From NCBI RefSeq assembly GCF_932294415.1, contig NC_065543.1, positions 28,849,530-28,913,529 on the forward strand: DNA of 64,000 nt. Reading direction: 5' to 3'. This document shows, piece after piece, positions 11,792 through 59,525 of this stretch. Each line of letters opens with the position of its first letter. Position 1 is the first letter of the stretch. The notes under the pieces are model-generated. The model was not told where the DNA came from. It was given only the letters and a program-made list of their open reading frames with translations, and made no database searches. The position numbers and the translations under genes are program-made. This DNA comes from Quercus robur. Its lineage: Eukaryota; Streptophyta; Magnoliopsida; Fagales; Fagaceae.

Positions 11792-11860
11792 TAAAAGTGT
11801 TTCAATTCAAATATTTTTTTTTTAACTTACGTCAAATCATACATCCTGTACTCCTGCATC

Positions 11861-15906: not shown

Positions 15907-15925
15907 AGTAGGATTTTGAGGGGCT
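15907..15925 (+). other. Polypurine tract region of the Tat element
   Basis: GTAGGATTTTGAGGGGC lies immediately before the 3' LTR; the purine-rich GAGGGG is the usual place of second-strand priming. Confidence 0.55.
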
Positions 15926-23429: not shown

Positions 23430-23755
23430 AGGGCTACTTATATATTAGAAGCAACAAGTCTATTACAAAAAAGTGTTAGCTTTATCACTAGCTAACAGAT
23501 ACTCCACCATCGGCGGTGGTTCCACAAAAACTACAAAAGAGAAATTACGTCTAGCCCCAACTCTAACTAAAGCATATACGCAACGATTTGCTTCACAGTA
23601 GGTGTGTTCAACCCGTTTGTTGGGGATGGCTCTCAGAAGGGTCCAACAGTCAGTCAAAAGAGGCTCCATTAGCATATTGGCAAAATCATTATTCATTAGT
23701 TGAACAACACTCTTAGCATCCAATTCAACAATAAGGCTATTAAGATTGAGGTTCT
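23430..23755 (-). pseudogene. LINE RNase H C-terminal remnant
   Basis: The minus-strand ORF 23723-23463 reads MDAKSVVQLMNN, then CEANRCVYALVRVGA, then FVEPPPMVEYLLASDKAN. This is the typical end of the plant L1-type RNase H domain (RVT_3), with the EANR-x-x-x-x-L motif. It is 5'-truncated at about 23755. No tail can be read because a G22 run stands at the 3' side. Confidence 0.7.
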
Positions 23756-23958
23756 TGTACTTTTGTTATTGCTTATAGTAGGCTTTGTTGACTCATTCTA
23801 TGCTTTCTCTATACATGTTCTTTCTTAAATAAGTGTTTTTTAAGCGTTTTACAATTTTGTTAAAAATTGAGCCCTTGTGGCAGTCCATATGGACTCCTAA
23901 ATGTTGCCCAATTCAATAGCACCACAACCATATAAGAAGGAAATAGAAATTTTTGAAA

Positions 23959-24805
23959 GAGTTTAGCTTACTTCCAGTACTTTTTTAACTGGAATCTACT
24001 TTTATTTTAACTAGCCATGAACCCGCGCGTTGCGCGTAATAATTATTTTTATGGTAGTTTTATTAAAAAAAAATTACAATTTAAACTAATCTAAAAATGA
24101 GTAATGTATTTCGTAATTATATTTATATTTATTATAGGAACAATCATAAATGTAATAAAGAAACAATCCAAAACATCAAAAAAAATAAACTAAAAAAAAT
24201 TAATAAAACTTAACAATGATTAATTGAACCAATATTAGGATAAAATTTTGTTTTTGATAATCTATTAAGGTTATTTTCTTTGTAGAAATTATAATTTTGG
24301 CCACCCAAAACATATTATCAAATAAAAAATTATTAGAAAAATCTAAGAATTAAATTGCTTAAAAATAAAATTTGTCACCTATCTGATTATTTTTGTTTGG
24401 CTAACATTTGCTTTTCTTTAAATAAATGGCATTATAGAGTACTTCTAATACAACTATTAAGAGTACTTTGTCCGCCACAAAGGATTAGAAAATAAACAAA
24501 AATTAGTAGTCTCATAGTTTAACATCTAAATTGAGCACTATAAAAAATCATGCTATGTAACAAAATAAATATTAAATTATCTAAATCATGCTATGTAATA
24601 GAATAATATTATATTTTTATATGCTATATTTAATTCTTTAAAACGCAATAGGATAACATTTAACAATCAAAGAGAATAAAAAAAAATAACAACAATTTAA
24701 AAAACAAAACAAAATTGCATTAACCCAAAATAGAGTTTTAAAGAATATAAAAAATTATCAACCTAAAGTAGAGATGCAAGAAAAAAAAAATCCACCAAAA
24801 AATTT

Positions 24806-24840
<35 letters not shown>

Positions 24841-25573
24841 AAACCATTTTTTTTGTGAGGGAAAACTATGCATAGAATAAAAGAGATAGTAACAAATTTA
24901 TAGTAAGAGAGTGTGAATAAGAAGAGACAAAAATAAAAGGAAGATGAAAGGAAAGAGGAAGAATGAGATTAATATAAAGGGTAGTGGGGAGATGAAAAGA
25001 TAAGGGGGGAGATGAAAAGGTAAGGGATGGAGAAAGATTGAAGAAGTAGTGGGGAGATGAAATAGTCAGGGAGAGAGAAAAACTGGGGAAGTGTAAATAT
25101 TAAAAAAAATAAATGTTAAAAGCAATTATAGGAAAATTGAAAAAAAAAAAAACCTAAAGCTGAACTGAAAAGACTTTGGGTTGGGCTTAATAATGGAACT
25201 AAATAAATAAGAGGTGGGCTGGATTAATTATATAGATTTATTATAGGGTGATAGTGGAAGTAAATAAATAAGTAGTAGGCTAGATTTGTTATAGGATGAT
25301 AATGGAAGTAAATAAATAAGTTGTGGAAACCATTTTAAAATTGTAGGACAATTTTTTTTTTTTTTAAATGACGTCGCAGCTGATGTGACGCAACGTGAGA
25401 GCAGCAGCATTAAACACTACGTTTCAGCTTTTAGTAATATATAGATAGATGAGAGACTGCTACGTCACCCACTAACTATATAAAAGATGGAGATTGAAAC
25501 TCACTACCACTAGTTATTGTATATTTAAAAAGTTCATGTCTAGTTAAAAAAGTACTAGAGGTAAGCTAAACCC
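23959..25573. mobile_element. MULE-type MITE carrying a Helitron
   Basis: The terminal inverted repeats are GAGTTTAGCTTACTTCCAG at the left and, on the other strand, GGGTTTAGCTTACCTCTAG at the right, about 35 bp long with few mismatches, continuing AGTACTTTTTTAACT on both sides. The flanks TTTTTGAAA (23950-23958) and TTTTTGTAA (25574-25582) form a 9-bp duplication with one mismatch. The paralog at 47996-48215 has a single TTTTTGTAA there. Without the Helitron the MITE would be about 180 bp. Confidence 0.75.
24011..25449 (-). mobile_element. Non-autonomous Helitron, about 1.4 kb, second family
   Basis: The minus-strand 3' end is CTAG at 24011-24014, with a GC-rich hairpin CGCGC-GTT-GCGCG at 24024-24036. 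The 5' end is TCTATATATTACT near 25445, or TCTATCTATATATT at 25449. The flanks are A (24010) and T. It differs in end sequence from the Helitrons at 1-2.6 kb. It is AT-rich with a GA microsatellite at 24808-24836 and no Rep/helicase coding. Confidence 0.65.
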
Positions 25574-25642
25574 TTTTTGTAATACATGGAAAACAAAGCA
25601 AAAGAATGACTGTATGTAAAAAGGTAAAGGAGGAACAGAGTT

Positions 25643-28600
25643 TTTTTTTTTTTTTTTTTTGATTGCCAAACATATAACTAGTTTCATTGATACGGACCAA
25701 GGTCCATTAAAAGTACATCATTTTGAATTTGGAGTTCAATAACAGGGGGAGTGTCCTCCACCCATATAACACAATCAGCAACATGCAAAGCATTCCTAGC
25801 AAGTAAGTGAGCAGCCCTATTGTTATTCCTTTTGACGTGATCAGCCCTCCAGGACTTGAAGTGGCTAAGGCACCTCTGTGAGCCTTCAACCACCTTTTGG
25901 ATGACTGAAGCTGGGAAACCAAAACCATTTAGCGCAAGCATTACTAGCTGAGAGTCCCTTTCCACCATAATGTCCCTCAATCCCAGGTCCCAAGCTAACA
26001 AAATACATGTTTCAGCAGCTTTTGCTTCGGCTTCTAAGGCTCCCCAAGGCGCAGCAACCTTCTTACATAATGCCCCCATCATCTGTCCTTTGTCATTTCT
26101 AATGACCACCCCAAGACCACAGCACCTTTGCTCCTTAAACACAACTGCATCAACGTTTACCTTATACTTACCTTGAGTAGGAGGAGTCCAATGTTTAACT
26201 CGAGTGGCTGGCTGGGTTTTTTGGCCCACATTCAGACAAGCCGCTCGAAATTCTTCCATATAAATCCTTGCTTCCCCTTCAATGGTCTTTCCATTCTTGC
26301 ATTTACCCCCAAACCTGACAGCATTTCTGTTGTTCCAAAGCAGCCACACCGTGACAGCAAACTTCTCCCAATCCTTCTCACCTGAGGAAGCCATTAGCAA
26401 CCACACCACATCGAGGAATTCCTTTGGGGGGCAGTCAAGTCTGTCTAGCTTGAAGCTTGTCTCACTCCAGGCTTCTTTTGCTACTTTACACCCCCAAAGA
26501 ATATGACCCGATGATTCACACTCCCCACAAAGGTCACACATGTCCTCCTTAATAACCTTCCGGTGCACTAAACATTGTTTCGTGGGTAAAGCATTTTTGC
26601 AAGCCCGCTAAAAGAAATGCTTAACTTTGTTTGGGCACTTTAAACTCCATCCAAGCTTCCAAATGGCTTCCATTTTTGATGTATCGGAGCAGCACGGGCC
26701 ACCTCCATTTTCCTTTGAGACCTCAAGGTACCGGACTGCCACCCTGTATGCACTCTTAACGGAAAAGATGCCATTGGGGGTTTTAGCCCAAATCTGGGAG
26801 TCAGCTGGTTTCATAGAACTAATAGGAATACTCATGATGGACTCAGCCTCAAAGGGAATGAAGAAACTCCTAACCAAATCACCATTCCATTCAGCTTTGT
26901 CATGAACCATCAGGTTGGCTACATTCTCCCCATAGACCAATGCAAGCTTGGGAGAAATAATTCTACCTGTCATCGTAGAAGGAAGCCAAACGTCATTCCA
27001 TATTTTGATACTCTTTCCGTCACCCACACACCATCGAATCCCATCCCTTAACACAGGTATGGTTGCCATCAAGCTTCTCTAAATATAGGAGGGTCTTTTC
27101 CCCACCTGGGCATCCAAAAAAGAGGAATTTACAAAATACTTCGCTTTAAGCACTCTGTGGAGAAGGGAGCCAAGACTTTGCTGAATTCTCCACCCTTGTT
27201 TAGCTAGGAGTGCAAGATTGAAGGCTTTCAAGTCACGAAAACCCATGCCGCCCTCCTTCTTTGATTTGCACAGGTTTTCCCACGAAACCCAAGCAATCTT
27301 CCGAGCCTTTTCTTTCTTTCCCCACCAGAAACTCCCAACCAAAGAGTTTATTTCCGAGCATAAAGAATCAGGCAGCTTGAAGCAATTCATGGTGTAGGTA
27401 GGAGTAGCTTGTGCAACCGCCTTTATTAGGACTTCTCTACCGGCATTAGACAAAAGCTTCCCCTTCCACCCTGCTATTTTCTTGCTTATCTGGTCTTTAA
27501 TACGGTTGAAAGCCTTTTTCTTTTCCCTACCCACCATCAGGGGCAAACCCAAGTATTTCTCGTGATGTTGAACAATCTATGCCCCAAACATGTCCTTCAC
27601 CCCACTTTGGATGTCAGCCCTTGTATTCTTACTAAAAAACAAGGATGTTTTATCCCTATTAATCTTTTGCCCTAACTCCTTCTCATAGGTGTCTAAAACC
27701 TCAGCCACCTGCTTGCATTTCTCCATTATAGCTCTACAAAAAATTATGCTATCATCTGCAAAGAAAAGGTGTGAGATCGATGGTGCAAGTTTGCTCACTC
27801 CCACCCCCTTTAACAGCCCCACATCTTCCTTTTTTCTGATCAGTGCAGATAGCCCTTCCGCACACAAGAGGAATAAATAGGGAGAAATAGGGTCGCCTTG
27901 GCGCAACCCCCTCATAGGTGTGATTTTCCCTTTAGGTTCCCCATTGATGAGTACCTAATAGGTCACCGTGGTCACACACATCATAACTAGGGAAATCCAT
28001 CTCTCACAAAACCCCAACTTCCTCATAACGATCTCAAGGTACTTCCATTCTACCCGGTCATAGGCTTTGCTCATGTCCAATTTAATGGCCATTAAGCCTT
28101 CCTTCCCTTTTTTCCTTTTGCCAATAGTATGCATAGTTTCGAAAGCTACCACCACATTATCTGTTATGTGTCGCCCTGGCACAAAAGCACTTTATGCTTC
28201 ATTAATCACCTCATGTAGAATTTTCTTCAATCTATTTGCCAACACTTTCGAAATTAACTTATAGATCACGTTACATAGGCTAATTGGCCGATAGTCCGTT
28301 ATCTTTTGTGGGTTTTTGATCTTCGGAATTAGACAGATATATGTATTATTAATATCCCTAGGCATCACCCTTGTGTTAAGAGCTTGCAATACACAATTGG
28401 AAACACTACCACCAACAATATTCCAATAGTTTTGGTAAAAAATGGGAGACATACCGTTAGGCCCGGGAGATTTTGTGGGGTGCATTTGTCGAAGCGCTCG
28501 CCACACTTCTTCCGCTTTAAAACTTCCCAGTAGCTCATTGTTCATCTCAGGGGTCACCCTCTCGTTCACTGCCTCCAGGCTTGCTCCAAAATTTGAAGGA

Positions 28601-29530
28601 TGGTCTATACTGAATATTGATGAGAAATAATCCAGGATGATCTTCTCTGTCGCCCCTTGCTCCTCCTGCCATATACCTCCTTCATCCATCAAACCCCCTA
28701 TTCTGTTTTTCCACTATCTTTGGCTGGCTGAAGCATGGAAGAATTTTGTATTTCTGTCTCCGTGTTGCAACCAAAGTACCCGAGATCGCTGGTTCCACAT
28801 AATTTCTTCCCTGATGTAGAGCTCATTTAACTCCTTGCGGACTGCACTTATCTCCGCTGTTGTATCGTGAAGCATGTTAAGGGACTCAAGTTGTTGGAGG
28901 CGATCTTGTTTTTGCTTTAAATTCTTAGCCACATTCCCAAATTTATTCTGATTCCACCCTTTCAGGTTGCTTTGACACCTTTCAATTCTTTCCTAGATAG
29001 GCATATCTGAGTCCTCTATATACGAATTCCAAGCCATGTCTACAATTTCTTTGCACTCAGCCTCTCTCACCTACATTGCTTCAAACATGAATCTTTTCTT
29101 CTTTTTCTTTTGCTGCTGCAACTTGTTCAGGGACAAAGCCAGCAAACAATGGTCCGATGTTGACATCGAAATATGGAAGACTTTAGCCTCTGGAAAGAGC
29201 AGGAGCCAAGCTTCATTAGCCACCATTCTGTCTAGACGGAGCAGTGTGCGTTGCTCCCCATGCCGTCCATTACACCAAGTAAATTTCTGCCCCACAAAGT
29301 CCAAATCCACCAAACCACATCTGCTAAGGACTTCACGGAAACTCCTTATCTGATTTGCATCTCTCTCCCTCCATCCCAACTTCTCATTTGGATGCAAAAT
29401 CTCATTAAAATCTCCACAAACTACCCACGGCATCTCACATTGGGCATGCAGAGCTTCAATCAATTGCCAAGAGCTCTGCCTTTTGCTCGTATCCGGATGC
29501 CCATAAAACCCGGAAATTCTCCACGGACCG
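25643..29530 (-). mobile_element. 5'-truncated L1-type LINE, 3.9 kb
   Basis: It begins on the + strand with a T20 tract (the poly-A tail, 25641-25660). It is flanked by a perfect 15-bp duplication, AGGAGGAACAGAGTT, at 25628-25642 and 29531-29545. Only ORF2 remains, truncated inside the endonuclease domain at the 29530 end. The inverted paralog at 48088-48089 shows the uninterrupted target. Confidence 0.92.
25684..29525 (-). pseudogene. LINE ORF2: endonuclease, RT, zinc domain, RNase H
   Basis: Domains in minus-strand order: endonuclease C-half (VVCGDFNEI, TSDHCL) at 29525-29071; RT (KSPGPNGMSPIFYQ, PISLCNVIYKLISKVLANRLK, KLDMSKAYDRVEW, RQGDPISPYLF, FADDS) at about 28692-27600; thumb and linker to 26608; zf-RVT (CDLCGECESSGHILWGC) at 26560-26470; RNase H (VNVDAVVFKEQ to NRAAHLLARNAL) to 25684. 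All open segments lie in one reading frame. It is interrupted only by stops near 29068, 28985, 28711, 28189, 27952, 27574, 27073 and 26587, with no frameshift that I can see. Confidence 0.9.
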
Positions 29531-29650
29531 AGGAGGAACAGAGTTAACTAAAATCAAAGTGAGAGGAGAATGGGAGCAAGATTGTCAATTATTAGAAAAC
29601 GAAAATTACGTTATCTGGTGCCGCTTTAGAGTTCTTACACGTGTGCTTTT

Positions 29651-30155
29651 TAAATTCCAGGCTCAATGGCGCAAAAGAAAACCGGGTATGTAAATATTTT
29701 TTATTCCAAAACATAAACGATGGCATGCCCATATCAAACCTAGAACCCCTATGAGTAGGAGAATCCAGTAGCAAACTCCAATGGAGTCTTTTTCTTCACA
29801 TTTATGGCAGAAACAAGTCCCACATCTACATTTAAATCAATTATGTCAAGAATAAGATCAACTGTGTAATATGCTATGTTTGCTTATCCATGAAATTAAG
29901 ATAGACAAAAATAGACAAGGCAAAAATATTAAAAACCTCAGATATATAATAAGAACATAAAATTTCGGGACTAGAGGCAGTCAATGGAGGATTAGTGATA
30001 TTCCCTATAATACGAATTATGGTTTGAGTATCTCATCCCCCTCATTAGATTATGTTCTCCTTAAGGGGAAGTTAAATTGGGCTCACTCTACTTTAGATTG
30101 TACTTGTTGGTAATGTATTTTAGTCTAATAAGATCTATATATATATATATATATA
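29651..30155. other. Intergenic sequence, unidentified
   Basis: There is no believable ORF and no repeat I can pair, other than a (TA)n run at 30138-30155. Confidence 0.4.
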
Positions 30156-38554: not shown

Positions 38555-39144
38555 TGGTGCACTAGCTGCTGCACTATGCACTGAGGACTTTAGCTCAACA
38601 CTTTACTGTGCTGGCTTTTTATTCCTTTTGTCTTCTTTTGCCTTATTTTCCTTTATGTAGGTTCCTATTACTAATTGAGATATGTTATTCTTGTAGGGTC
38701 CTATTACTTGATTGATTCGGGGTACCTCATTGGGAAATCGTTTCTTCCACCACACAAGTCCACCCGATATCATGCTCAAGAATTCAGGAGGAGCAATAGG
38801 CAACCGGCATCAGGGAAAGAGTTGTTTAACTATAGACACTCTTCATTGCTGGTGCACTAGCTGCTGCACTATGCACTGAGGACTTTAGCTCAACACTTTA
38901 CTGTGCTGGCTTTTTATTCCTTTTGTCTTCTTTTGTCTTATTTTCCTTTATGTAGGGTCCTATTACTAATTGAGATATGTTATTCTTGTAGGGTCCTATT
39001 ACTTGATTGATTCGGGGTACCTCATTGGGAAATCGTTTCTTCCACCACACAAGTCCACCCGATATCATGCTCAAGAATTCAGGAGGAGCAATAGGCAACC
39101 GGCATCAGGGAAAGAGTTGTTTAACTATAGACACTCTTCATTGC
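38555..39144 (+). repeat. 295-bp tandem duplication within the transposase gene
   Basis: Copy 1 is 38555-38849 and copy 2 is 38850-39144, both starting TGGTGCACTAGCTGCTGC and ending CTTCATTGC. I see about two differences (GCCTTATTTT/GTCTTATTTT and TAGGTTCC/TAGGGTCC), so identity exceeds 99%. Each copy contains an intron end and the exon reading SYYLIDSGYLIGKSFLPP. Confidence 0.92.
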
Positions 39145-39208: not shown

Positions 39209-40300
39209 TGATAGGCCATAAACTGAATGACTCCTTGTGATAGAAATTAATTAATTAATTAATTAGTCAAATTATTAATTAATCAATTTATCATGCAAAC
39301 GCGTGGTAGCACAAACAAATCACCAATAAACTAATTATGCAGCGGAAAATAAATAACACGGTGATTTGTTTACGAATGGGGAAAACCTAACAGCAAAAAC
39401 CCCACTGGGTGATTTTCAGGTTACCACTCCCGAAACTCCACTATTATTACAACAAGCGGTTACAAATAAAGGAATCCCAAGTACCTTACCAACCTACAGT
39501 TGAACCCTTACCTCAATACCCAATTGGACTTATTTTGTAGTGACAGTTTCCCTTTCTAATGCACAGCTCCCAAGTACGTAACTAACCAATTTGATGCGCG
39601 GATCCCAGTACGCGGCTTACTCCTTTGCACGAATCCAAGTACGTGACTAACACCACAGCAAACCCTTGATTGTTGTAGTTGATTTGCAGCAGCTTCACAT
39701 AGAAACACCAATAAGATCTTTAATGTTGGTGTAAGAGACTTTGCTTGGTTACAGAACCCAAAGGCGTACAAGAAACGCAGCAAGAACTCTTTCTTCTGTA
39801 GGAGGAGGCTAAGGTTTCAAAAAGAAAACCTTATGAAGCTCTCTAGGGTTAGGTTTTTCTTTTTTTCACCTCCTTTTAAATAGGAGCTTAATGGGCTCTC
39901 CTATTCCAAATAGGTTTACACAAACCTTGAGCTTTCCTAGTCCAATAAGAATTATGCAAACCCACAAACCTTGGGTTTTCATAGTCTTATAAGGATTATA
40001 CAAACCCATAAACAAATAGCCTTTTAGAATAAAAACGTTGCTAGCTATAATCTGAATCTCGTAAGCTCGATAGATCAAGACATCTGTCAAGCTTTAATGA
40101 ATCTGGACAGATCGAGCTTCTGTCAAGGAGGTATCGAGACCTATAGATTGCACTTTTCTTGAGCAGTTCTTGAGTAATCTTCATGTCTTCAATTTAACCA
40201 CTTGTAATGATCATCTTGAACCTACTTAGATTTACCCAAATACAAGTAAAGTGTGTTTTGTCAAAGGATATGTCAATTACATAAAAATATGTCCCTAACA
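39209..40300 (-). repeat. 3' LTR of the Copia-type element
   Basis: 1092 bp, a direct repeat of 43367-44453. It holds several TCGAG/ATCGAG words near 40068-40138 that also occur as a cluster in the internal region. Confidence 0.9.
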
Positions 40301-42418
40301 ATCTCCCCCTTTGGCAATTTGTGACAAAACCACAAGAATACATTGAATGTCCTAGAATACATTCTACTCAAGATTACAGAATAAATAAGTCTAGTCTAAA
40401 AGATCTGAACCTTGGAAGTTGCTGCAAGAAGAAGGTTCGGAATCTTGACTTAGCTTTAACTTGTCTTTCCTGAAAGGCACTAAACAAAACACATCAAGGT
40501 ACCATGTGGAAAATAATGACAAGTTAAATAAACAAGAAATATGTGTATAAAGAGAGAAAAGAAACAACACATGTGAGATAAAAAGTGAAACACATACATC
40601 ATCATCAAATATAGAAACAACACATGATGTATGTAAATGGTTACAAAACCAAAAGATACACAACATAAGAAAAATATATCAATATCTATGTGTATCAAAC
40701 TAACTCTCTCCCTTAGTTACATCAAAATTTTCTTCACTTTAACATGAAGTTCTCCCCCTAAGTCTATTACTCCCCCTTAGGAATGACATTCAATTCTCAA
40801 ATTTCTCCCCCTTTTTGACACGATTGTCAAATGGCATAAAAAGCCAAAAGACATGACAGGAGACAAACAAAAAACTGACATAGAGAGAACGAGGAGAACA
40901 AGGAACCATAGACCTACAAGAAAAAGAGAAACAAGATGCTATGGACACAAAGATAAAAGAAAGATGCAAAACATGTGAAAAACAATGCATGCAAGAGGAT
41001 CTCGATCGATCGAGAGGTGTCGAGCCATCTGTCAAGGAAGGTATCGAGAAAAAAGGTCTTTGACAGATACAGGTATCGAGGAGGTGTCGAGGAACAAATC
41101 ATCAGATACAAGAACAAAATCTCGATCGATCTAGCAGGTATCGAGAAGCTATCGAGGAGGCAGAAGCATTCTCGATCGATCCACCAAGTGTCGAGAAGCT
41201 GTCAGAATTGCGATAAGAAAAAGCTGAAGAAGCTCGACAGACAGCAAGGTATCGAGGAGGTGTCGAGCTAGCTTTTAAAAACAGTTTTTCGTGATGTGAA
41301 AAATACAGACATGAATGCAATCCAACATGCAACTCACCCAATGATCCAATCAACATATTTAGCTCTCAAAATCATCTCTCAATAACAATTTTAAGCACAT
41401 GGATCTTCAAAAAGAAACACACACACACACTAAACAAGTCTAACCAATTTTATATTTCAAAAACAAGTCAAGACAATTTAGTGAGCATACATTAACACAT
41501 ATAAAACCTTGTGATGGTCAAATCACATTGTACCTGCACATGTATCAAGAATAGCAAAGAATATTGCGTATTGTGTGTGAAAAACATCACAAGATTGCAT
41601 AAGTGTATACATGTTATGACGATTTGAGATATGAGAAAATCACTTTAACTCACACACAATCATAACTGCTTGATGGGGACTATCACCTTCGAGGTACATC
41701 CTATAACTCCCACACCTCCTAGAATACATGCTTGCAGTCATATTTAAAGCATTTTTTTTATCTTTTTGCTTTTGATATTTTTCTTTGCATATTTTTTTCT
41801 TTTAAGCATATCATGCATGGTCATATAAAAGAGAGAAAAGAAATACCCAATGATATTTGACATTCCAATTTTGCTATGCCTAAGCACACAAATGTCATTA
41901 ACACTGCACTTTTACTATGCCGAAGCATACAGGTGTCATATTATGATTGGCAGGTAACAATGGTGAGATGGTTATTTATGCCTTTCTTTTAGGATCTTCT
42001 AGTCCTTTCTGTCAAAAAGAGTGATATGAGTGTTAAGTATAAGAGACAACTTAATCTTACTCATCACAAACACGAGCCACAAAGCTCACTTGCTTAGTTG
42101 TGCATAGAAATGCTCATCTAAGCTACAAATGATATAAACTTTAAAAAATTTTGTTTCAATGGCTAACCAAGGTACACAAGTACCAATGTACACAAAACAC
42201 ACACTGTTTTTGTATTTTTCTGATTTTTCATTTTTTTTATATTAAAAACAAAATAAATAAAACTGAAAAAAAACAAAAACATGTTAAACAAATAAAAAGA
42301 AAGCATAAAACAAGATGCATATGCATGAAAGCATGATTCCAAAAAGAAATAAGAAATCAAGAAAGAAAGTTCAACTTTAAATAGAAAGAATTAAAGCAAA
42401 AGACAAACAAAAAGACAA
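40301..42418 (-). other. Non-coding interior of the Copia-type element
   Basis: No pol-like ORF in any frame. The first 520 bp hold four CTCCCCC tracts (minus-strand GGGGGAG): 40303, 40751, 40771 and 40803. At about 40998-41275 a dense cluster of TATCGAG, TGTCGAG and TCGATCGA words occurs. The remainder is AT-rich. Confidence 0.6.
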
Positions 42419-43300
42419 TTAAGTCTTAGGATCTTTTATCACCCACACAGCACGATTATTTGGCTGTGAAGATGAAAATGCACGTGTCCTAGTGTGACTA
42501 CTAAAGGACATAGAGGAATTAGAATTCCCCTGAAATTGAGTTAAAAAGCTCATAACTTTTAATAACTCAACAAGAATTGGTACAGAACCTTTAGAGAAAG
42601 GATGAGACCTATTGGACACTCGCTTATGAGGAAACAATTTGAAACAATTAGGACGAGTATGACCTAAAGCACCACAATGGTGACAAACATGAGTAGTTTT
42701 ATAACTACTCGGTTTCCTAGGAGGTCTAACCTTGGAGGTTGACAGAGACCTTAACTTAGGACAATTTGGCCTAATATGACCAACAATATGACAATGATGA
42801 CAAGTGGAGACAAATTCAAAATTTTTATTCTTCCTAGGAGGAGTTTTAGACATAGGTTTAGAAACTTCCATGTTAACATCAGAATTTTTACCTTTGTCTA
42901 TCCTAGAAATATTAACCTTCAACTCTTCATTATTCCTTTTAAATGGAGGAATATAAAAATTCTTTTCTTTTGAGTTAGGCTCAACAACAAGTTTGGCACT
43001 AGTCAATTTTTCAACTTCATTTTTAGATTCAACTAGTTGCTCTTCCAAACTTTTAATTTTGTCCACCTGAGATGAAATTTGATTTTTAAATTTCTCATTC
43101 AAATTATTAGCTTCATCCAATTTTGCAATCAAATCATCTTCTTCAAGCTTGACCTTTTTAAAATTAGCTTTTAATTTTGTAGAGCATTCAAGAGATTTCA
43201 TACAAAAATTATAAAGCTTGCAATAGGCATCTTGAATATCATCATCATCATTCAATATAAGATCATGCAAATCAAAACAATCAAGAGTTTTCCATGACAA
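42419..43300 (-). pseudogene. Copia gag C-terminal part with two zinc knuckles
   Basis: 293-codon open frame. Residues 30-110 form a coiled coil (LKANFKKVKLEEDDLIAKLD, SLEEQLVESKNEVEKL). Two CCHC knuckles follow: CHHCHIVGHIRPNC and CHHCGALGHTRPNC. The LNDDDDIQD start and coiled coil resemble the downstream half of Sirevirus gag. The gag N-terminal part is missing next to the PBS, and the frame ends DPKT before protease would start. It was probably left by internal deletion. Whether it is expressed is unknown. Confidence 0.75.
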
Positions 43301-43366
43301 CAGAGGTCAATGGATCACACAACAAAGATTAAAACCTAATCAGAGTGTGTCTGCTTTGATACCACT

Positions 43367-44453
43367 TGATAGGCCACAAACTGAATGACCCCTTGTGATA
43401 GAAATTAATTAATTAATTAGTCAAGTTATTAATTAATCAATTTATCATGCAAACGCGTGGTAGCACAAACAAATCACTAATAAACTAATTATGCAGCGAA
43501 AAATAAATAACACGGTTATTTATTTACGAATGGGGAAAACCTAACGACAAAAACCCCACCGGGTGATTTTCAGGTCACCACTCCCAAAACTCCACTATTA
43601 TCACAACAAGCGGTTACAAGTAAAGGAATCCCAAGTACCTTACCAACCTACAGTTGAACCTTTACCCCAATACCCAATTGGACTTGTTCTGTAGTGACAG
43701 TTCCCCTTTCTAATGCACGGCTCCAAAGTACGTGACTAACCAATTTGATGCGCGGATCCCAGTACGCGGCTTACTCATTTGCACGAATCCAAGTACGTGA
43801 CTAACACCACAGCAACCCCTTGATTGTTGTAGTTGATTTGCAGCAACTTCACATAGAAACACCAATAAGATCTTCAATGTTGGTGTAAGAGACTTTGCTT
43901 GGTTACAGAACCCAAAGGCGTACAAAAAACACAGCAAGAACTCTTTCTTCTGTAGGAGGAGGCTAAGGTTTCAAAAAGAAAACTTTATGAAGCTCTCTAG
44001 GGTTAGGTTTTTCTTTTTTTCACCTCCTTTAAATAGGAGCTTAATGGGCTCTCCTATTCCAAATAGGTTTACACGAACCTTGGGCTTTCCTAGTCCAATA
44101 AGAATTATGCAAACCCACAAACCTTGGGTTTTCCTAGTCTTATAAGGATTATACAAATCCATAAACAAATAGCCTTTTAGAATAAAAACGTTGCTGGCTA
44201 TAATCTGAATCTCGTAAGCTAGATAGATCGAGACATCTATCGAGTTTTAATGAATCTTGACAGATCGAGCTTCTGTCGAGGAGGTATCGAGACCTATAGA
44301 TTGCACTTTTCTTGAGCAGTTCTTGAGTAATCTTCATGTCTTCAATTTAATCACTTGTAATGATCATCTTGAACCTACTTAGATTTACCCAAATACAAAT
44401 AAAGTGCGTTTTGTCAAAAGATATGCCAATTACATAAAAATATGTCCCTAACA
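43367..44453 (-). repeat. 5' LTR of the Copia-type element
   Basis: 1087 bp, bordered by the PBS at its left edge (43351-43364, minus orientation) and by the target copy ATGGC at its right. Confidence 0.9.
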
Positions 44454-44758
44454 ATGGCAAACTATAAGGAATCTCGACAACGTTTGATTTTTTCTGCGTG
44501 TTGTGCATTACACAATTTTATACGCATCAATAATCGTAGAGATGAAATGTTTAACTCATGGGAGAACCTTGACGTTGATAGAAATGATGTACAAGCTGGG
44601 AACAATGGGAATTCTCCTGAGTCGAGTGCAAGTGTTGAAAGGAGGCATGTGAGGGAGATGTCTGATGTGACGAAGAGGGCAATGGGTGAGTTTAGGGATG
44701 ATGTGATTGCTCGCATGTGGGAGGAGTACGCGCGATGACGGGGTTGATGGTGGGCACG

Positions 44759-45750: not shown

Positions 45751-46500
45751 GTTCTCTACAGAGGACAAACCTCTTCCCACATAGAATCACCAAACACAAA
45801 AGGCGATAGTCCCGTTGAGCCGATCTTTATTACCATCAAGGAAAATATAGTGGAGTTTTATAAGGATCTTTATTCAGAGTCAAGTATCTGTAGGCCCTTG
45901 CTGGATGGAACGAAATTTTCTATTTTGGAAGACGAAATGTCTTGCTGGATGGAAAGATGTTTTTCAGAGGATGAGGTGTTTGAAGTGGTATCCAACATGA
46001 ATCCCCTGTTGTATGTGCCTCCATGGTATGGGTTTGGTTCTAGGCAGAGGCAGTGGATTTTTTCATGTATTTCCACATTTCATTTTTCTGTGCTTGTTGT
46101 GGAGGCCCTCAACCAGATGTTAGAGAGAGCTAGAATTTGAGACAAGGGGACCCTTTATCCCCTGATTATTATGGAGGCCCTCAGCCGGATGTTTGAGAGA
46201 GCTTGAATTGGCAACTTTGTTTTAGGTTTTCAGTGCGTGGAAATTCTAGGGGCTAGTTAGAGATCTCTTATCTTTTATTGGCAGATGATACTTTGATTTT
46301 TTGTGGAGTGAATCCAGAGCAAATTTGGCATTTGAAAGTAGTGTTTGTCTAGTTTCAGATTGTATATGGTTTAAAATAAATTTGGGGAAATCTAAACTAG
46401 TTCCGGTTGGAGATGTACAGAATGTTGAAACTTTGGCTATAATTTTAAGATGTAAATTGGCATTGTTACCCATGACTTATCTAGGGCTTCCTTTATAATG
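45751..46500 (+). pseudogene. LINE fragment, RT region, right part
   Basis: Open pieces read NIVEFYKDLYSES and WMERCFSEDEVFEVVSNMN (typical of the region before and at the start of plant LINE RT). After a gap comes a damaged copy of the FADD region (about 46270), then GLKINLGKSKLVPVGDV-like sequence and LPMTYLGLPL (46300-46498). The central RT core is missing. It appears to be the continuation of 32752-33873 across the Harbinger insertion, but no overlapping frame proves that. Confidence 0.6.
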
Positions 46501-46504
46501 CAGG

Positions 46505-46920
46505 AGCATAATCAAAAGTTATTTCAATATTTCATTTTAGATTTTCAGTGGATAATATCAGATTGTAACGTAGTTATTTGTTTAGTTTGGATTGAAATTT
46601 GAGTTTGGTTAGGATTAGTTGTTCATCATTATCCTTTGTTTAGGATTATCAGATTAGTATTTGAAATTGTTTAGGATTTGTTTAAGAGTGTTTATCCTTA
46701 TCTTTGTGATTCCTGGAAGCTGCATATAAAGCTTTGAATGATTTCTTTTGTATGGACAGACTATTATTATTATTATTATTGAGATTATTGCAGAGATTGC
46801 ATAGTGTTTGTTTGGTGGTGATTCCAAACACCTTAGGTGGGAAGCCTAAGGTTCTATGTTAGGACTAATCTAGGTGGGAAGCCTAGGTTGTCCTACATCA
46901 ATTTGGTATCAGAGCTCAAT
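46505..46920 (+). mobile_element. Copia-type LTR plus PBS remnant
   Basis: A perfect initiator-Met primer binding site, TGGTATCAGAGC, lies at 46904-46915, two to four bases after a CA end (TCCTACATCA). The preceding 350-400 bp has LTR features: a TATA-like GCATATAAAGC at about 46722 and a (TTA)n stretch. The LTR start is not certain. The internal region is lost; a MITE follows at once. Confidence 0.55.
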
Positions 46921-47093
46921 TCGAGATACAAATTATTTTACAAAATTTTTTACAAACTACTGATGTGGTGAGTGATTATTGATAAATAAAAATGTGATAT
47001 TAATGGTGGGCCTAAATGAAAACCAATAAGAGGTTGGCCATATCAACATTTTATAAAAATGTTGTAAAATAATTTGTGCCAGAGCATTACTCC
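46921..47093. mobile_element. hAT-type MITE, about 170 bp
   Basis: The inverted ends are ACAAATTATTTTACAAAATTTT at about 46927 (given by position) and, on the other strand, ACAAATTATTTTACAACATTTT at about 47083. No clean target duplication was found. It begins inside the truncated retroelement after the PBS. Confidence 0.55.
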
Positions 47094-47130
47094 TCTTAAA
47101 AATACTTCAAATATTTAATGCACCTAGCAA

Positions 47131-47386
47131 TGCATGTCACATCATGCTGGGCAACTGGAAAAAAAAAAAAAAAAAAAAAAAAAAATCTAAATCTAATGGC
47201 TGAATTTTTTTTGCTTTTATATAAAAATTAAAACCTTTCATCATTCCAATGTTAGCCACGTGAGGGAATGCACATCACATCATGCTGGGCAGCTGAAAAA
47301 AAAATTGAATCTAATGGCTGAATTTTTTTTGCTTTTATTAAAAAAATTAAAACCTTTCATCATTTCAATGTTAGCCACGTGAGGGA
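47131..47386 (+). repeat. 138-bp tandem duplication
   Basis: The block beginning CATCATGCTGGGCA, containing TCTAATGGCTGAATTTTTTTTGC and ending TTAGCCACGTGAGGGA, occurs at about 47131-47268 and 47269-47386. The main length difference lies in the A tract (28 A versus 9 A). Confidence 0.85.
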
Positions 47387-47769
47387 CTTAGGAATTCAAA
47401 AGGAGTAACAAAAGAAAGAAAGAGAACACATAGCAGTAGTATTCAGCGAAAAAGAGGAATTACAGAGTAATCTCCTTCAACGGAAAAAAGAAAGAGAAGA
47501 AGAAAGAAGAAGAAGCAACAGCATACGACGAAGGCATGATCGGCAACTGTGTTGGCAACCTGCTGGCTGCTGCTTCAACTAGGCGCAAAACCTGTTTCGT
47601 TGTCTTCTTCTTCTCTATTTTTTTTTTTCCCCTTACAAATCCCTTTGTTCAAGATTTGAAATTATCAAATCTCCTTCTGATCTTTGTTCTTCTTCGTGTT
47701 CTTTCGTTTCTTCTAGATCTAATCATAACTTCATACCGGTGTATTGGCCAAAATTCACCGGAAAAGCTG

Positions 47770-47808
<39 letters not shown>

Positions 47809-47995
47809 AAAGAAACCGTCCAAACCTCAAAAACTGGTCACGGTTCACAGAACCGAGCGGTCGAACAACAGTCCGTGCATGTCCCTGCTTTTTTTGCATG
47901 TAACGGTTCTTCACCCTAAACAGACCGTAAAGCTAAACGGTTCGAGGTTTTTCGATCGGACCATATGGTTCGGTTCGAGTTTCAAAACCTTGAGT
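47387..47995. other. Unidentified sequence with an A37 tract
   Basis: The + strand ORF 47536-47919 is hydrophobic and then poly-Lys through an A run (about 47770-47806), so it is not credible. GGTTCG words repeat near 47827, 47940 and 47970, suggesting a dispersed element, but no ends are seen. Confidence 0.35.
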
Positions 47996-48215
47996 GTAAG
48001 AACTCTAAAGCGGCACTAGATAATGTAATTTTCTTTTTCTAATGATTGACAATCTTGCTCTCATTCTCCTTTCACTCTGATTTTAGTTAACTCTGTTTCT
48101 CCTTTACCTTTTTACTTACCTTTATTCTTTTGTTTGTTTTCAACGTATTACAAAAATTTCTATTGCTTTCTTATATGGTTGTGGTGCTATTGACTTGAGC
48201 AACATTTAGTGACAT
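47996..48215 (-). repeat. Inverted paralog holding the empty target sites of two insertions
   Basis: Its reverse complement matches, without interruption, 23893-23958 + 25574-25642 + 29531-29650. The junction AACAGAGTT|AACTAAAATC (48088/48089) lacks the LINE, and TTTTTGTAA (about 48149-48157) lacks the MITE and its Helitron. Identity is roughly 85-90% by eye. Confidence 0.85.
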
Positions 48216-48960
48216 GAAAAGAGGCTAAGGGTTTTGTTATAGGGACTAAGTTTTATTTTATTGGGCCAAATTCTAAAAATAGGACATTTTTTGAAAAGCT
48301 AAGATGGCCATGACCCTTGTAACTCTACCTCTATATTAGAAAAATTTTAACACTACTTTTATAGAAAATATAAAAAATTATCCAAAAAATTAATTATTTT
48401 ATCATTTTTTCCTAAAATATTTATAAAATGAAATGTTAATAAACTATAAACATCTTAAACCAATGCCTTTTGAGTGGTTATTGCTAGTTTCCCTTTATTA
48501 TATAGCTGCCACTCAGTTTTATTAGGTTCTAAATTTTAGATTTTTTAAGAGGCAAGATTTTACAAGTTGAGGGGGCCTGAGTGTAAATTTTTGTACATTT
48601 AAGGGGAAAATTAAAAAGTGAGGGGGCCATAGCTCTGCTAGTGACAAAATCAAAATATCCTTGTCCTCAATTAAAAATTTCAAGAAAAAAAAAAAAAAAA
48701 TCTTAATTCGTTACATAGGCCTTGATCTCATGAATCAATTTAACCAGCAAAAATTAACATCCAAAGATTTGCTACAACTCTATTTTTCTTTTTGTTATTT
48801 CTATCTATTAAATAGATTGACAAGTGCACAGATATTAAAAAAAAAAAAAAAAAAGTACAATCAACTCCAAAAAGAAAACCGATTACAAAATTTTCCGAAT
48901 TAAGGAAAAAAAAAAAGAAGACCAAAAACCAATCAAAAGAAAACAACAGGTGGCCCTAAT
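48216..48960. other. AT-rich intergenic sequence
   Basis: Poly-A tracts at about 48685-48700 and 48838-48854. No gene. GAGGGGGCC words at about 48570 and 48620 hint at a degraded element. Confidence 0.4.
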
Positions 48961-52700: not shown

Positions 52701-55700
52701 CCTTGCACATTGCATATATGCTTCTAAGCTTATGTGTGTCCTCACAACAAACAGTATTTTTTTATTTTTTGGACAATATGATGGGTTGGCTCATTCTTAT
52801 TGTGTCAAATTTATGTTTGTGACCATATCTGTATCCATGAGATTTAGTTAACAAAACCACCAAAAGCTTTGAGTCAAAGACTAAGTTGATTTGAGTTAAG
52901 TGGACAATTATGTTTGACAATGTTTTATATGTTGCAGATAAAAATGTTGGAATATAGACAGAATAGATTGAAAATGGAACCTCTGATGCTTAACAATGTA
53001 TCTCCATCAAATGGAAAATTGGATTCTCTGGAGTTCAGGAGGATAAGATGCAAAGGAGTTTTTGATGAGAAAAGATCAGTCTATGTGGGCCCACGTTCAA
53101 GAAGCATTTCAGGAGTGACTGAAAACGGCTACTATGTAATCACACCCCTTTTGCCCATCCCCAACAACACTGAGAGGTATATGCAGCAGGAGTTTATTAG
53201 CTTCATTAGTCATTGTAACGTAACTTGCTACAATTTATCATACTTGCTCTCTTTCTTTGAAGTGTGTTATCCAATTAAGTTAAGTTGTTAGAGAGGGATT
53301 TTCTATATTTAAACTATGCTTGAGTTGTATTCTTTTTCTTTTACAATGTGTTAACCAATTAAGTTGTTAGAGGGGGATTGTCTATATTTAAACTATGTTT
53401 GAGTTATAATCCTTTTCTTTACAATAATTTCTCACATCTGATGTCCAAATTTTTTCATGGAATAAATAAATAAATAACATTGTACTTTTTTTTATTTAAT
53501 GATTTGACAATACAATGGGAGATAGGGATTTGAACCTTGGTTCTCCTAACAAAGGAGAGCAAGCTATGCCACTAAGCTACAAGGCTCTTGGTAATCATAA
53601 CAATGTATTTATTGTATTAAGTTTTAGTTTTCAAAGTTTAGTTAATCTGGTTTATATTCACTGCATTTACTGGGTATACCAACATATTTAATCGTATGCC
53701 AATTCTTTCAGCATCATCATCTATTACTTTTGCAACTCAATCATGACTTAAATAGACAATTTGTATGTATTACAAGATATAAACTAATAAACATTATAAC
53801 AAACAAAACTTCCAATATGACAATGCAGATTGGCATAGTAAGTTTCTGGTCAAAAAACCTAATGATGAACTCACAAAAGTTAAGCTTACTTAAAAAAGAA
53901 ACTATCCTGCACCCTATTGTAATATATCTATTAAGTTTTCTCATATTGGCTTGAAACCAAGCTCAAAGAAGCTGTTATATTCCACTAGCATCTTCACACG
54001 CACTATGCATGTGTACACAGTTTTTTTTTTTTTTTTTTCAAATAAAAAATATAATATTATTAAGTCTTAATCACAAGTAGTTATAGTTTATGTATAAAAC
54101 ATGTGTCCTGATTTTGTGGAAGTTAAATTTTTTACATTTACTTTTTTATTTGTTTTATTCTATCTTTTTATTTTAAGAATGTGGCTTTTTAATGTGTGCA
54201 GAGTATATTTGGGGCTTGTTAGTGGGAGTAGAATTTCATGGACAGTTTTTAATTTCTCAATTTACCAGTATGTCCTTAATATGGTTATTTTTTGGAAGAA
54301 TACAAAAATGGACACTAAAGCGTTCTATTCCAACTATATATATATATATATATATATGACCTTAGAGAAACGAGGGGGGGAAAGGGATTACTACCTGACT
54401 AGTATTTTTTTTAAAAAGAGAGAGAAACTAAATAGAAATAGCAATTAATGCTATTGTGTCCAAATTGTTGGTCCCGTATTCCATTTTGGGATGTCCCAAA
54501 AGTTTGTCCTCTCTAAAAAGTTAATAGATAAATTTCCTAACTTATCCTTTATTTGAAAAGTAAATGCCATTCTTTCACTTAAGTTTGGATTAATGAGGAT
54601 AGTTTTGGTAATTTGTAAGACAACATTAAAAAGGCGTTCCCTCAAAAAATTTGATTTTCTAAACAAGACCAACAATATGGTTGGGGCAGTTTGGGGTCGA
54701 GGAGACAAGGCTTTGGAGGAGGATGATAGCTATGAAATTTGGGAAAGAGAGGGGGGGATGGACTTCCCAAGTTGGGTAGGGGTTCACATGGTTGTGATCT
54801 TTGGAAAAACATTAGAATGGGTTGGGAAACCTTTAGTCATTGTACTGGGTTTGTGAATGGGATGGAGAATTGGGTGCGATTTTGGCATGACTGTTGGTGT
54901 GGTGACCATCCACTTAAAGCGGTCTTCCCGGTTTTGTATGAGAAGTTGGGATGTGAGGTTCCTTCGTGAGGCTTTTGTAGAGTCATCTTTGGTGAGGCAG
55001 GGTGTGGGGGAGAGGAGTTGGGATGTGAGGTTCCTTCGTGATTTTAATGATTGGTAGGTGGCATTAGTAATTGAGTTTCTCGAAATTTTGGAGACTAACA
55101 CCCTTCAACAAAGAGTGGGGAATGTATGAGGTGGAAGTTGAAAAAGAATGGGGACTTCCATATCTATTCTTATTATAATAAGCTTAGAGGTTCTTATTCT
55201 GTCATCATCCAATGGAAAGGCATTTAGGGGGTTAAGGCACCTAGACGGGTTTCCTTCTTTGTTTGGATTGCAGCATGGGGAAAAATACTCACTTGTGATA
55301 ATTTGAGGAGAAGAGGATTTTCTATTGTGGATTGGTGTTATATGTGTCAGTATATTGGGGAGACTGTGGATCATCTAATGATTCACGGCAAGAGGGCTTA
55401 TCTATCGTGGAGCTTTGTTGTTAGAACATTTGCAGTCTCTTGGGTTTTACAAGGAAGGGTGATAGACCTGCTATTTGGATGGAGGAATTGGTTGGGGAAG
55501 TACTTGTGTGATATTTGGAATTTGAAAGGATTGTGTTTGATGTGGTGCATTTGGAGGGAGTGTAATAATTGTACATTTAAAGATGTGGAGAGTTTGGGGA
55601 ATCAACTCCTTGCCTCGTTTATGGGCTCTCTGTTTGATTGGTCTCGGGCTTGGGGACTCACATCTAGTGATTCCCTTCCGATGTTTATAGATTTGCTTCT

Positions 55701-58700
55701 TCCTTGTTCTTTTTTTTTTTTTTTTGGGGGGGGGGGGGGGAAATTACACTTTGCCCACCTGTGATTTGCTCGAAAAACAATTTACCTACCTGTGGTTTAA
55801 AAAATGGCACTTTACCCACCTATGATCCTATCTGTTAACAGTTTGTTGCCCACCTGTGGCCTTGCCATTACTCTAACACAATTTAACTTAAAAACATATT
55901 GGCAAGTGAATCAAACACACTGAAAAGCCAATATCATTACTGAAAAGCTTTGAGCACTTTGCAGTTTCTGTTGTACAAAGAGAAGCTAACATAGTAGAGG
56001 CTTCGATTTTGTTGATTGGTGCATTTTGTGCTGTTGTAATGGGGAGTCGGCGAATCATTTGCTTCTCCATTGTGATAAAGCTTATCTGTTGTGGAGCTTG
56101 GTTTTTAGATCCTTTGGGATTTCTTGGGTCTTGCCAAGATCGGTTGCAGATATGCTTTTCGGTTGGTGGAATTGGTTTAGAAAGCACTCATCTGGCGTTT
56201 GGAATCTAGCTCCGTTGTGCCTAATGTGGTGTATTTGGAGGGAGCGTAATTGGCGTACTTTTGAGGATAGGGACAATTCCGATGACCAATTGCTCGCTTA
56301 TTTTAGTGGCTCTCTTTTTGATTGGTCTAGGGCTTGGGGACTCACCTCTAGTGATTCTATCCCTATGTTCCTTAGTTCTCTTCTCTGTAATTAATTTGCT
56401 CTTTGTTGTCTCCGTTTGTTTTCTTGTTTTTTTTCTTTTTCTTCTCTCTTTTTGTTTGTTTCCTTCTCTGTATTCTCTGTTCTGCCTTGTGTTTTCATGA
56501 GGTAGCTTCTTAATATATATCTTTCTTACTTATCAAAAAAAAATAGTAGCTTCATATGTCATATGTATTCTAGTTAATCTTTGATTGAATTTTTTTATGT
56601 GAACTATTGGACAGAGCAGTTCCAATATAAAAAGCTCCGATTCATATTCAATCTTTAAAAGATTCTCTACAAATTCATATTCAATTTTTTTTAAGCATTG
56701 ATTTTAAACAAAGTCCTTCTCATTTCCTTTACCTTCTCTTCCTTTATCTAACCCCACCTAAACCAAGTTCTCTGGTTTTAGAACTTACCCACATAATGAA
56801 ACCCAAAAAACTAATTTTTAAACCCCAACATTTTTAATTTTATACCCAGGATTCTTGGGGTTTCTTTCTTTTCCCTTCATTTTGAGGTCTGTTTTCTCTT
56901 TTGTTTATCTAATTGTTGGTATTCACAGTTTGATTTCTCTGTAGGAAACTTTCTCTTCTTCTGGGTACATGTTTCCCAGATCTGGGTTCGTGTCCTAACT
57001 TCTGCTTTTATCAATATCCTTTGAGTTGTCCTCATTCTCTTTTAATTTCTTCATCGTCACAGTCGGACTACAATTAGTTTTTTCTTTTCCACTTTCTTTG
57101 CCTTTCTTTCCTAACAGTTTCCAGAGCTTGAATCAGGCTTCCCAAGCATGTATCAGCTTCACCTTCCTCAGTCTTGGGCATCAATTTCTGCAATTTCTAA
57201 CACAGAATTCAATAGAAACAACATGGAAAATTACCATCAATTTCTTCAATTTCAAAAAAAGAAAAAATTAAAAACCCTAGGTTAGAGAACATACTTGGAA
57301 TTTCACTCCAGAGGGGTATTCCTCAAACTCTGTCACAAGGGTTTTGATCAGAATGGTAATCGAAAGTGATTATGGAAATTTCACTTGATGATCTTCATGG
57401 AGTGGCTGAATCCAACAAGAGAGAGTGAAGAGTGTGGCATCAGGTTTCTTTCTCTTGGTTTTAGTGTGTTTGATTCACTTTCTAAAATGTTTTTAAGTTA
57501 AATTGTGTTGAGTAACGGCAAGGCCACAGGTGGGTAACGGACTGTTAACAAATAGGACCACAAGTGGGTAAAGTGCCATTTTTTAAACCATAGTGGGCAA
57601 AGTGTAATTTCCCTTCTTCTTTTTTTTCCTTTTTATTGTACATCTTTGCTTCTTTGTGATCTTTTCTCATGAAGTGGTCTTTTTTCATTGACATTGAACA
57701 TATAAAAGATATATGGGATGGAGGTAGTAAAATATTTCTTGACATTGAACATATGTTAGATGCACCTATCATAGTGATATGTGTTCCCACTGGTGATCAA
57801 AACAATCCAGTTAAAAGGGCTCTTTGATATTATTGATGTGTCAAATATTGGCTCAAACAGTTTGAAATAACTTGTTGGCTTAGATTGTATCCTAGATTTG
57901 GGAGTTTTCTCAACAAGCAGTGTTTTGTACCATGAAAAATTAAAGTAGGGTTCTACTGTCTTGGAGAGGAAAATTTTCAAGGTTTTATTGTCTTGACTGA
58001 TTGATGATTTGTTGTATCAGCTAAAAGTATATTGAAAATTTTTCTTCCAGCATGCAGTCGCCAATTTTGGTTAACAGAGGATGGGTTCCTCGTAGTTGGA
58101 AAGAAAAGTCTTTGGAAGATTTACAATCCAGCGAACTTCCTTCCAGTACAGCAACCCCATCTGTCAAAGATAGCGAAAGCAGCTCTTGGTGGAGAATTTG
58201 GTCTAAGAAGCCCAAAAATATTGAGGTTTGTTTTGGTAGTTACTTGATGCCTTGTTCAGGTGGGGCATATCAAAGATACAATCTAAATTTTTGCAACTTA
58301 CAGGTCAATGCCCCTGCTGTCATTCCTTCAGAAGTTGTTGGAGTAGTTCGTGGGAGTGAGAAGCCTAGCATATTTGTTCCAGCAAATGATCCAAGCTCCT
58401 GTCAGTGGTTCTATGTTGATGTTCCTGCATTGGCTCATGCTGCTGGACTTCCTGAGAATACTGTCTACATTGAAGACATAAACGAAAATATCAATCCAAG
58501 TAACCCATACCCGATTCCAAAAGATGCTAATACCTTGATTCGCAGCTCAGTAATGCCACAGGACCATCTTAATTATACATTCACATGGTATGCTTTTGCA
58601 TCTTTAGATACACCAAATTTCGGATGCACTTGCAATCCCCTTCTGAAAATACTGGTTTGCTGTTACTGCATTCATAATCATTCTTTATTCATTTATGCCT

Positions 58701-59525
58701 TGATCTCAGTTTATATTGTTCATGATTGTTCCAAGAATGGAAGGAGTTCATCTTCCAATTGTTATGTTTGTTTACCATTTTGTGGACCTATATATAGGCC
58801 AGCAGTGCCACTATGATATTTCCCTGGTCAATTGGGAAATAATCAAATTAATTTGATTAGTTAATTTTAACATATGATGAAAACTGGTCAACAAATTGTT
58901 AGTGAAAAGAACAATCTGTTCTGTGAAAGGTTCATACTAAGTTATGCTAGTTGCATGTTAAGCAGCTACCAACTTACCATAAACTTCTCAAAGCCATAGA
59001 TGATTCAAAGCTTTCATATACGTATTCTGGAAAGGGTAAAATGCTTACTCCGTTCTGTGTATATCTATATTTAAAGAAGGCATAATTTAGATATTTGTTT
59101 TAAGTTCTATGGAAACATCTTTATGTAAAGCAGAAGCTAGTGTTACTACAAACATCGTTTCTGTCAATCAAACTATCAAAATGTTTTGATCACTGTAAAT
59201 CAATGGAAGAAAAACATGCTTGTGGGTTTTGGTTGATGTGGGAGGCACAAATCCCAAAATGTATTTTAGCATTTTATTGCACTCTTCTACGTGCTAGTTG
59301 TTTACTTAATTATATAATATGTTGAAGATATGAAATCCACACATATTTCCTCAAGCAACAGGCCAACAGAATTATAAGATAATTCTCTCACAAGGTTGAG
59401 AAATTCTGGGACATACTACACTACCTTTTCTGATGTCATGTTTTATTCTGCTCAGGTACTCTCTATCTGCTGCTGTCACGTTTATGGCTTACAAAAGATT
59501 AAGGCCCAAAAAGAGTCGGAGATAG
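49609..59525 (+). CDS. SURF1: SURF1 family cytochrome c oxidase assembly protein, 6 exons, 350 aa
   Basis: Exons 49609-49789, 49902-50005, 52938-53176, 58051-58225, 58304-58587 and 59456-59525 (1053 nt) join in phase with GT-AG borders. SURF1 sits in the mitochondrial inner membrane and assists heme a handling during complex IV assembly. Seen here: a basic, Ser-rich N-terminus with eleven consecutive Ser from an AGT microsatellite (targeting region); first membrane helix at about 72-88 (WLLFLPGAFTFGLGTWQI) followed by LRRQDKIKMLEYRQNRL; the SURF1 core with FRRIRCKGVFDEKRS, then ILVNRGWVPRSW; and a second helix near the C-terminus (YSLSAAVTFMAY) before a basic tail. The length is usual for plants. 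The start codon is the ATG at 49609, the first before the basic leader. Introns 2 and 3 are swollen by transposons. Confidence 0.92.
49716..49747 (+). repeat. Coding (AGT)n microsatellite in SURF1 exon 1
   Basis: About nine AGT triplets, then AGC TCC, read in frame as poly-Ser inside the presumed mitochondrial targeting peptide. Confidence 0.9.
50690..51060 (-). pseudogene. LINE zf-RVT region remnant
   Basis: Minus-strand translation gives pieces such as VDHLLLHCKVA, PKRVIDDLFGF and an interrupted stretch before KWTIWREK. This is the order found after the RT in plant L1 LINEs (zinc-binding Cys/His region, then W-x-x-WR). There are several stops and frame changes. Confidence 0.5.
51641..51908 (+). 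repeat. 168-bp imperfect tandem duplication in SURF1 intron 2
   Basis: TTCAATTACTAAG through AATTTGGCAAGAG is present at about 51641-51733 and 51809-51909. The intervening ATATGGTTAGTTGTATTTTC block resembles 51424-51463. Confidence 0.75.
53453..53594 (-). mobile_element. tRNA-derived SINE, minus strand
   Basis: On the minus strand an A-box-like CTTGTAGCTTAGTGGCATAG at about 53585 is followed by a B box, GGTTCAAATCC, at about 53545, then an A/T-rich tail ending in (AAAT)n-like sequence. The internal promoter spacing is as in tRNA-derived SINEs. Clean target duplications were not found. Confidence 0.65.
54458..54690. mobile_element. Degraded Stowaway-like MITE
   Basis: The left inner end ATTGTTGGTCCCGTATTCC and right inner end GACCAACAATAT are inverted. 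CATTTTGGGATGTCCCAAAA is nearly the same as in the MITE at 16894-17259. The outer termini are worn. Confidence 0.5.
54690..55709 (+). pseudogene. LINE 3' part, C-terminal zinc domain
   Basis: Sense to SURF1. It reads GCDLWKNIRMGW, NWVRFWHDCWCGD, then [36 protein letters not shown] and FDWSRAWGLTSSDS. These are hallmarks of the post-RT region and terminal zinc domain of plant LINEs without an RNase H. Frames are broken, and a roughly 72-bp stretch (SWDVRFLR) is tandemly duplicated near 54945-55030. The 3' end runs into the T16-G15 pair and the foldback element. Confidence 0.7.
55710..55740. repeat. T16-G15 homopolymer pair
   Basis: It lies at the junction between the LINE 3' end and the foldback terminus. 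Same composition pattern as at 23393-23423 and, reversed, at 35132-35159. Confidence 0.7.
55738..57613. mobile_element. Long-TIR foldback element with an internal LINE tail
   Basis: The left end GGGAAATTACACTTTGCCCA and right end (other strand) GGGAAATTACACTTTGCCCA begin inverted repeats of roughly 180 bp. The repeats run past CCACCTGTGG, CCTTGCC and ACACAATTTAACTTAAAAACAT. Target duplication cannot be read beside the G run. It might be Mutator-like, but I see no transposase. Confidence 0.7.
55988..56540 (+). pseudogene. Second LINE 3' tail, inside the foldback
   Basis: Homologous to 55330-55709: GESANHLLLHCDKAYLLWSLVF, MLFGWWNWF, CLMWCIWRERN, then FDWSRAWGLTSSDS and a stop at about 56393. 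A 3' UTR and a short A9 tail (about 56536-56544) follow. It is a separate insertion of the same LINE family. Confidence 0.7.

Follow-up and report, generated by a model that had tools for sequence, protein, structure and literature searches.

In the window (the whole 64,000-base stretch of DNA analyzed here), an uninterrupted 220-bp sequence on the forward strand, copy E (47994-48213), is a paralog of an interrupted sequence, copy A, and is empty at both sites at which copy A carries an insertion. We are highly confident that a sequence on the contig containing the window (C39) underwent dispersed duplication, that a MULE-type MITE, joined by a Helitron, and an L1-type LINE then entered copy A, and that copy E was cut by a hAT-like element.

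Copy E corresponds, in reverse complement, to three pieces of copy A that are collinear and all on the reverse strand (88-93% identity). The first piece (29531-29980) matches copy E over 29531-29640, and its remainder to approximately 29980 matches a further paralog, copy B; the middle piece (25574-25642) lies between the MITE and the LINE and carries the LINE target duplication (TSD); the last piece is 23897-23958. When 47900-48320 was compared with the window (blastn, E<=1e-3), the query matched itself and three other places only, all inverted and collinear: 29640-29531 (92.7%, 110 bp, E 1.5e-42), 25642-25574 (88.4%, 69 columns, E 3.2e-19), and 23958-23897 (91.9%, 62 bp, E 2.7e-20). The three-piece match of the original prediction was thus borne out by blastn, while its span of 47996-48215 is corrected to 47994-48213 and the start of the leftmost piece from 23893 to approximately 23897. 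After each element and one TSD copy were taken out, the joined pieces of copy A aligned with the reverse complement of copy E continuously across both junctions. As a control, 290 consecutive 220-bp blocks, covering 63,800 bases of the window's 64,000, were searched for inverted matches (E<=1e-6). Such matches were present in 15/290 blocks, including those of the E/A match itself; three inverted matches were found only for the block starting at 47961, and these were collinear. As predicted, a single window holds the empty and the filled sites and fixes the borders of both insertions, on which the alignments and TSDs agree.

The 220 bp were then used as a query against the window's own genome (786 Mb). 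Since the search tool scores the best candidates only and skips very common words, all copy numbers given here are lower bounds. The core proved to be low copy: with 7/7 candidates scored, the search gave seven places, which belong to five loci that all lie on C39. The loci are copy A (three pieces), copy E, copy B (C39:36250715-36250925, 92%), copy C (C39:8078392-8078611, 74%), and a partial copy D (C39:29750282-29750347, 82%), which covers query positions 159-213 only and spans neither insertion site. Copy B runs uninterrupted through both sites and has neither insertion. Copy C also spans both without either insertion; its MITE site is clearly empty, and its LINE site is continuous but blurred, a C-rich expansion making it poorly alignable. 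Dispersed duplication of a low-copy, apparently non-coding sequence on C39 would have produced at least five loci: besides the window's copies A and E, these are B (36.25 Mb), C (8.08 Mb), and the partial D (29.75 Mb).

Paralogs without an insertion are termed RESites (Related to Empty Sites) and show past mobility, according to passages of PMC2213677 and PMC4486113, both of which cite the RESite strategy of Le et al. Copy E is a RESite as those passages describe it, being a paralog of the insertion flanks without the element, which shows past mobility together with the TSD. Copies E and B, which match both flanks, run on across the site, and lack the element and one TSD copy, have this character at both sites, and copy C has it clearly at the MITE site and in blurred form at the LINE site. 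Copy E is particular in being the empty counterpart of two insertions and in occurring in the same window as they do; this is convenient but not new in kind.

The gap between the last and middle pieces of copy A is filled by the MULE-type MITE (23959-25573), which is approximately 176 bp without the Helitron and has terminal inverted repeats beginning GTTTAGCTTAC. Its two ends align over approximately 44 columns (local alignment), and it is flanked by a 9-bp TSD, TTTTTGAAA on the left (23950-23958) and TTTTTGTAA on the right (25574-25582), the two copies being alike at 8/9 positions. With the right arm as a genome query, 766 first-look candidates were obtained, of which the best 40 of 766 were scored. 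Among seven other copies fetched, the 9-bp flanks agreed at 8/9 positions in four and disagreed at the borders as called in three; the two arms adjoined (1-2 bases between them), with no Helitron, in 6/7. Plant Mutator-like (MULE) MITEs have 9-bp TSDs, terminal inverted repeats, a length of approximately 180 bp, and high copy numbers. The window MITE shares all of these features, but differs in holding a nested Helitron.

This non-autonomous Helitron-like element lies inside the MITE on the reverse strand (24011-25449, TCTATC...CTAG). It shows the TC...CTAG ends, a CGCGC-loop-GCGCG hairpin near the 3' end, and a position between A and T (A^T target) with no TSD, in keeping with the TC...CTRR ends, 3' hairpin, and A^T insertion of Helitrons. 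The six MITE copies without the Helitron represent Helitron-empty sites and thereby place the element at 24011-25449, between A and T; judged by the same copies, base 25450 is target and lies outside the Helitron. Both the TSD and the Helitron-free copies agree with the prediction that this gap is a MULE-type MITE with a 9-bp duplication and a Helitron inside. The MITE would have entered copy A, with its 9-bp TSD, after copy A split from the other copies, and the Helitron would have followed, inserting into the MITE between an A and a T.

The other gap, predicted to be an L1 LINE with a 15-bp duplication, does contain a LINE on the reverse strand (approximately 25643-29530), and its TSD is 13-15 bp long. 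Four of its ORFs were run against domain profiles, and three had matches: Exo_endo_phos (1.9e-7) and RVT_3 (RNase H; 6.3e-19) were above the cut-off, and RVT_1 (reverse transcriptase; 1.6e-5) and zf-RVT (6.1e-6, just below) were below it. Since the endonuclease match is partial (profile positions 119-225 of 225), the element is 5'-truncated. Its poly-A tail appears as poly-T at 25643 on the forward strand. The TSD, AGGAGGAACAGAG, starts at 25628 and 29531 (25628-25642 and 29531-29545); 13 bp are unambiguous (25628-25640 on the left) and identical in the two copies (13/13), and 15 bp are reached by counting the TT shared with the poly-T. In the sense orientation of the element, the site reads AGTT^AACTCTG, which loosely fits the L1 endonuclease preference and would favor the 15-bp reading. 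Plant L1-clade LINEs with RNase H have an endonuclease, reverse transcriptase, zf-RVT, RVT_3, a poly-A tail, and a TSD, and are usually 5'-truncated; the window LINE has the same features, with no notable differences. Independently of the MITE, it would have entered copy A by target-primed reverse transcription. The integration mechanisms proposed here are inferred from the element classes.

The predicted order of events is supported. Copying before the arrival of the MITE agrees with the empty site in copy E and with copies B and C, two further empty paralogs, and the later arrival of the LINE agrees with the empty LINE sites of copies E and B, that of copy C being blurred. These sites give good support to the reading that the MITE and the LINE arrived only after copy A had split from copies B and E. 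The nesting and the Helitron-free copies similarly lend good support to the view that the MITE is older than the Helitron, as had been predicted. The evidence sets no relative order between the LINE and the MITE, since the TSD copies, identical at 13/13 positions for the LINE and differing at 1/9 for the MITE, provide too little information. DNA transposons can excise, and the MITE may accordingly be imagined to predate the duplication and to have been precisely excised from copies E, B, and C. However, three independent losses without a footprint would be required, and the explanation is inapplicable to the LINE because L1 elements are not known to excise. We regard it as exceedingly improbable.

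The left border of copy E coincides with the 3' end of a high-copy non-autonomous hAT-like element, of which a 5'-truncated copy occupies 46924-47992. When the 395 bp to the left of copy E were used as a genome query, 261 first-look candidates were obtained, and the best 40 of 261 were scored. The 39 other scored copies matched up to query positions 389-394 (window 47988-47993), and 38/39 ended at 391-394 (47990-47993); the remaining 15 rows were short secondary pieces. The family is approximately 1.7 kb long with the ends CAAGGTTTTCAGACC...GGTTTCAAAACCTTG and has terminal inverted repeats and 8-bp TSDs, the latter in 7/7 examined copies (7/9 fetched), six being exact (one of them in a G run) and one having a single mismatch. 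The presumed 8-bp target duplication in the window is AGTGTAAG (47993-48000), which reads CGTGTAAG in copies A and B. A second copy of AGTGTAAG was not found; the window hAT-like copy is without its 5' end. Its truncation point, 46924, adjoins sequence that looks like an LTR end plus a primer-binding site (TGGTATCAGAGC). An LTR-like piece is present at 46500-46923. With a hAT-like end at 47994, copy E's left border is best explained as the scar of an insertion. Copy E lacks a part of the core that is still common to copies A and B, and this upstream part would have been lost by deletion. Copy E would thus have kept its empty sites while its left side was cut down by a hAT-like insertion, the 5' part of which was lost later.

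The 220 bp were originally predicted to be the copied unit. This does not hold because copies A and B share approximately 0.3 kb beyond the core (29641-29974 in copy A), and the border at 47994 is a hAT-like end. Copies A and B are 83% identical over 29531-29910, which includes the core piece, and 96% identical over 29926-29974. At the site corresponding to 29910-29926, copy B has an inserted element of approximately 338 bp (L009:8113-8450) that is absent from copy A; the family of this element is high copy (3497 first-look candidates, best 40 of 3497 scored). Copies A and E are separated by approximately 18-24 kb and face in opposite orientations, as they would if a 220-bp unit had been copied as a local inverted duplication within this 20-kb stretch. 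However, copies A and B have additional sequence in common, and a hAT-like element delimits copy E on the left; both facts argue against this explanation, as do the distances. With gap columns left out, the raw counts of core differences are 21/217 for A-B, 22/220 for A-E, and 16/216 for B-E, so that the three copies are nearly equidistant (23-24% from copy C), and copy E is no closer to copy A than to copy B, 7 Mb away. Nothing in these near-equal raw distances suggests that copy E is a local inverted offspring of copy A, and we consider such an origin unlikely. Dispersed duplication remains the preferred reading.

At the other border, the homologies of copies A, B, and E stop within approximately 4 bp of one another, at GCAACATTT(AG), and copies C and D run past this point with sequence common to both. 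In copy B, the right border is formed by an end of a high-copy element (546 first-look candidates, best 40 of 546 scored), at which 6/7 fetched copies of the element aligned while their flanks were unrelated. A genome search matched the 139 bp beyond copy A's left border nowhere else, and a piece of a second LINE follows them. This second LINE (RNase H piece, 23472-23756) might have produced copy A's border, but it was rejected as the cause because its family reaches only to 23757 and so falls 139 bp short: none of 37 other genome matches extends past 23757, and among 11 close relatives (79-91%), eight match exactly up to that base. The RNase H end of the second LINE (23472-23757) lies next to copy A in the same orientation as the first LINE, and a palindrome, AGTCCATATGGACT, is located at copy A's border (23882-23898). 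A search for partner terminal repeats in the right flank of copy E and the left flank of copy A gave best values of 14 and 13, respectively (shuffles, for copy E only: median 13, maximum 17). Since the three homologies stop so closely together and the next 139 bp of copy A have no other match, the right border (48213) may be an end of the copied unit.

The nearly common stopping point would also fit a shared core that is mobile in its own right, has a fixed end at GCAACATTTAG, and entered loci A, B, and E in separate insertions. We regard this as quite unlikely. Copies C and D continue beyond the end with mutually shared sequence, the border of copy B is the end of a different high-copy element, the genome search found five loci only, and the other end of copy E is unlike that of copies A and B. 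With five copies on one contig, three of which lose homology at nearly the same base, there is also a slim chance that the core is an undescribed low-copy mobile or recombining unit spreading within one chromosome.

A coding origin of the core was also considered and rejected. No Pfam match above the cut-off was found for the ORFs tested beside the copies, at window:47440-47916, L009:6734-7165, L010:5114-5662, and L013:798-1265. When ORFs at least 40 residues long were compared by tblastn among copies B, C, and D and the window, only short matches (approximately 28-50 residues) between B, C, and D were found at or near the core, and those between C and D fell in several reading frames of both strands, as expected from plain DNA similarity.

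In plant genomes, the order of events is read from the nesting of transposons, and the present case differs in that a paralog is added as a pre-insertion reference. It is a standard RESite and an ordinary nested-transposon history. As a clean worked example, it shows how a single paralog delimits two insertions and, together with the nesting, establishes part of the sequence of three events. Its usefulness lies in annotation and in testing the annotation of nested repeats, and it does not change the view of element function.

The window contains several other features. An LTR retrotransposon (5565-16721; 797-bp LTRs, 96.7% identity) has RNase H and integrase matches and contains a nine-copy array of an 80-bp tandem repeat (11857-12599); a distant relative (67% over approximately 5.9 kb) is located near copy B. 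Direct repeats of 1094 bp (95.3% identity, approximately 4.15 kb apart) at 39209-44455 resemble the LTRs of a second LTR element, and immediately upstream (38555-39144) is a tandem pair of 295-bp units (99%). A lipid-transfer-protein-like ORF (LTP_2, 2.7e-13) is present at 18732-19181. SURF1-like exons are found on the forward strand at 52890-53288 and 58025-58813 (region 52890-58813) and flank a LINE-type zf-RVT piece (55228-55761).
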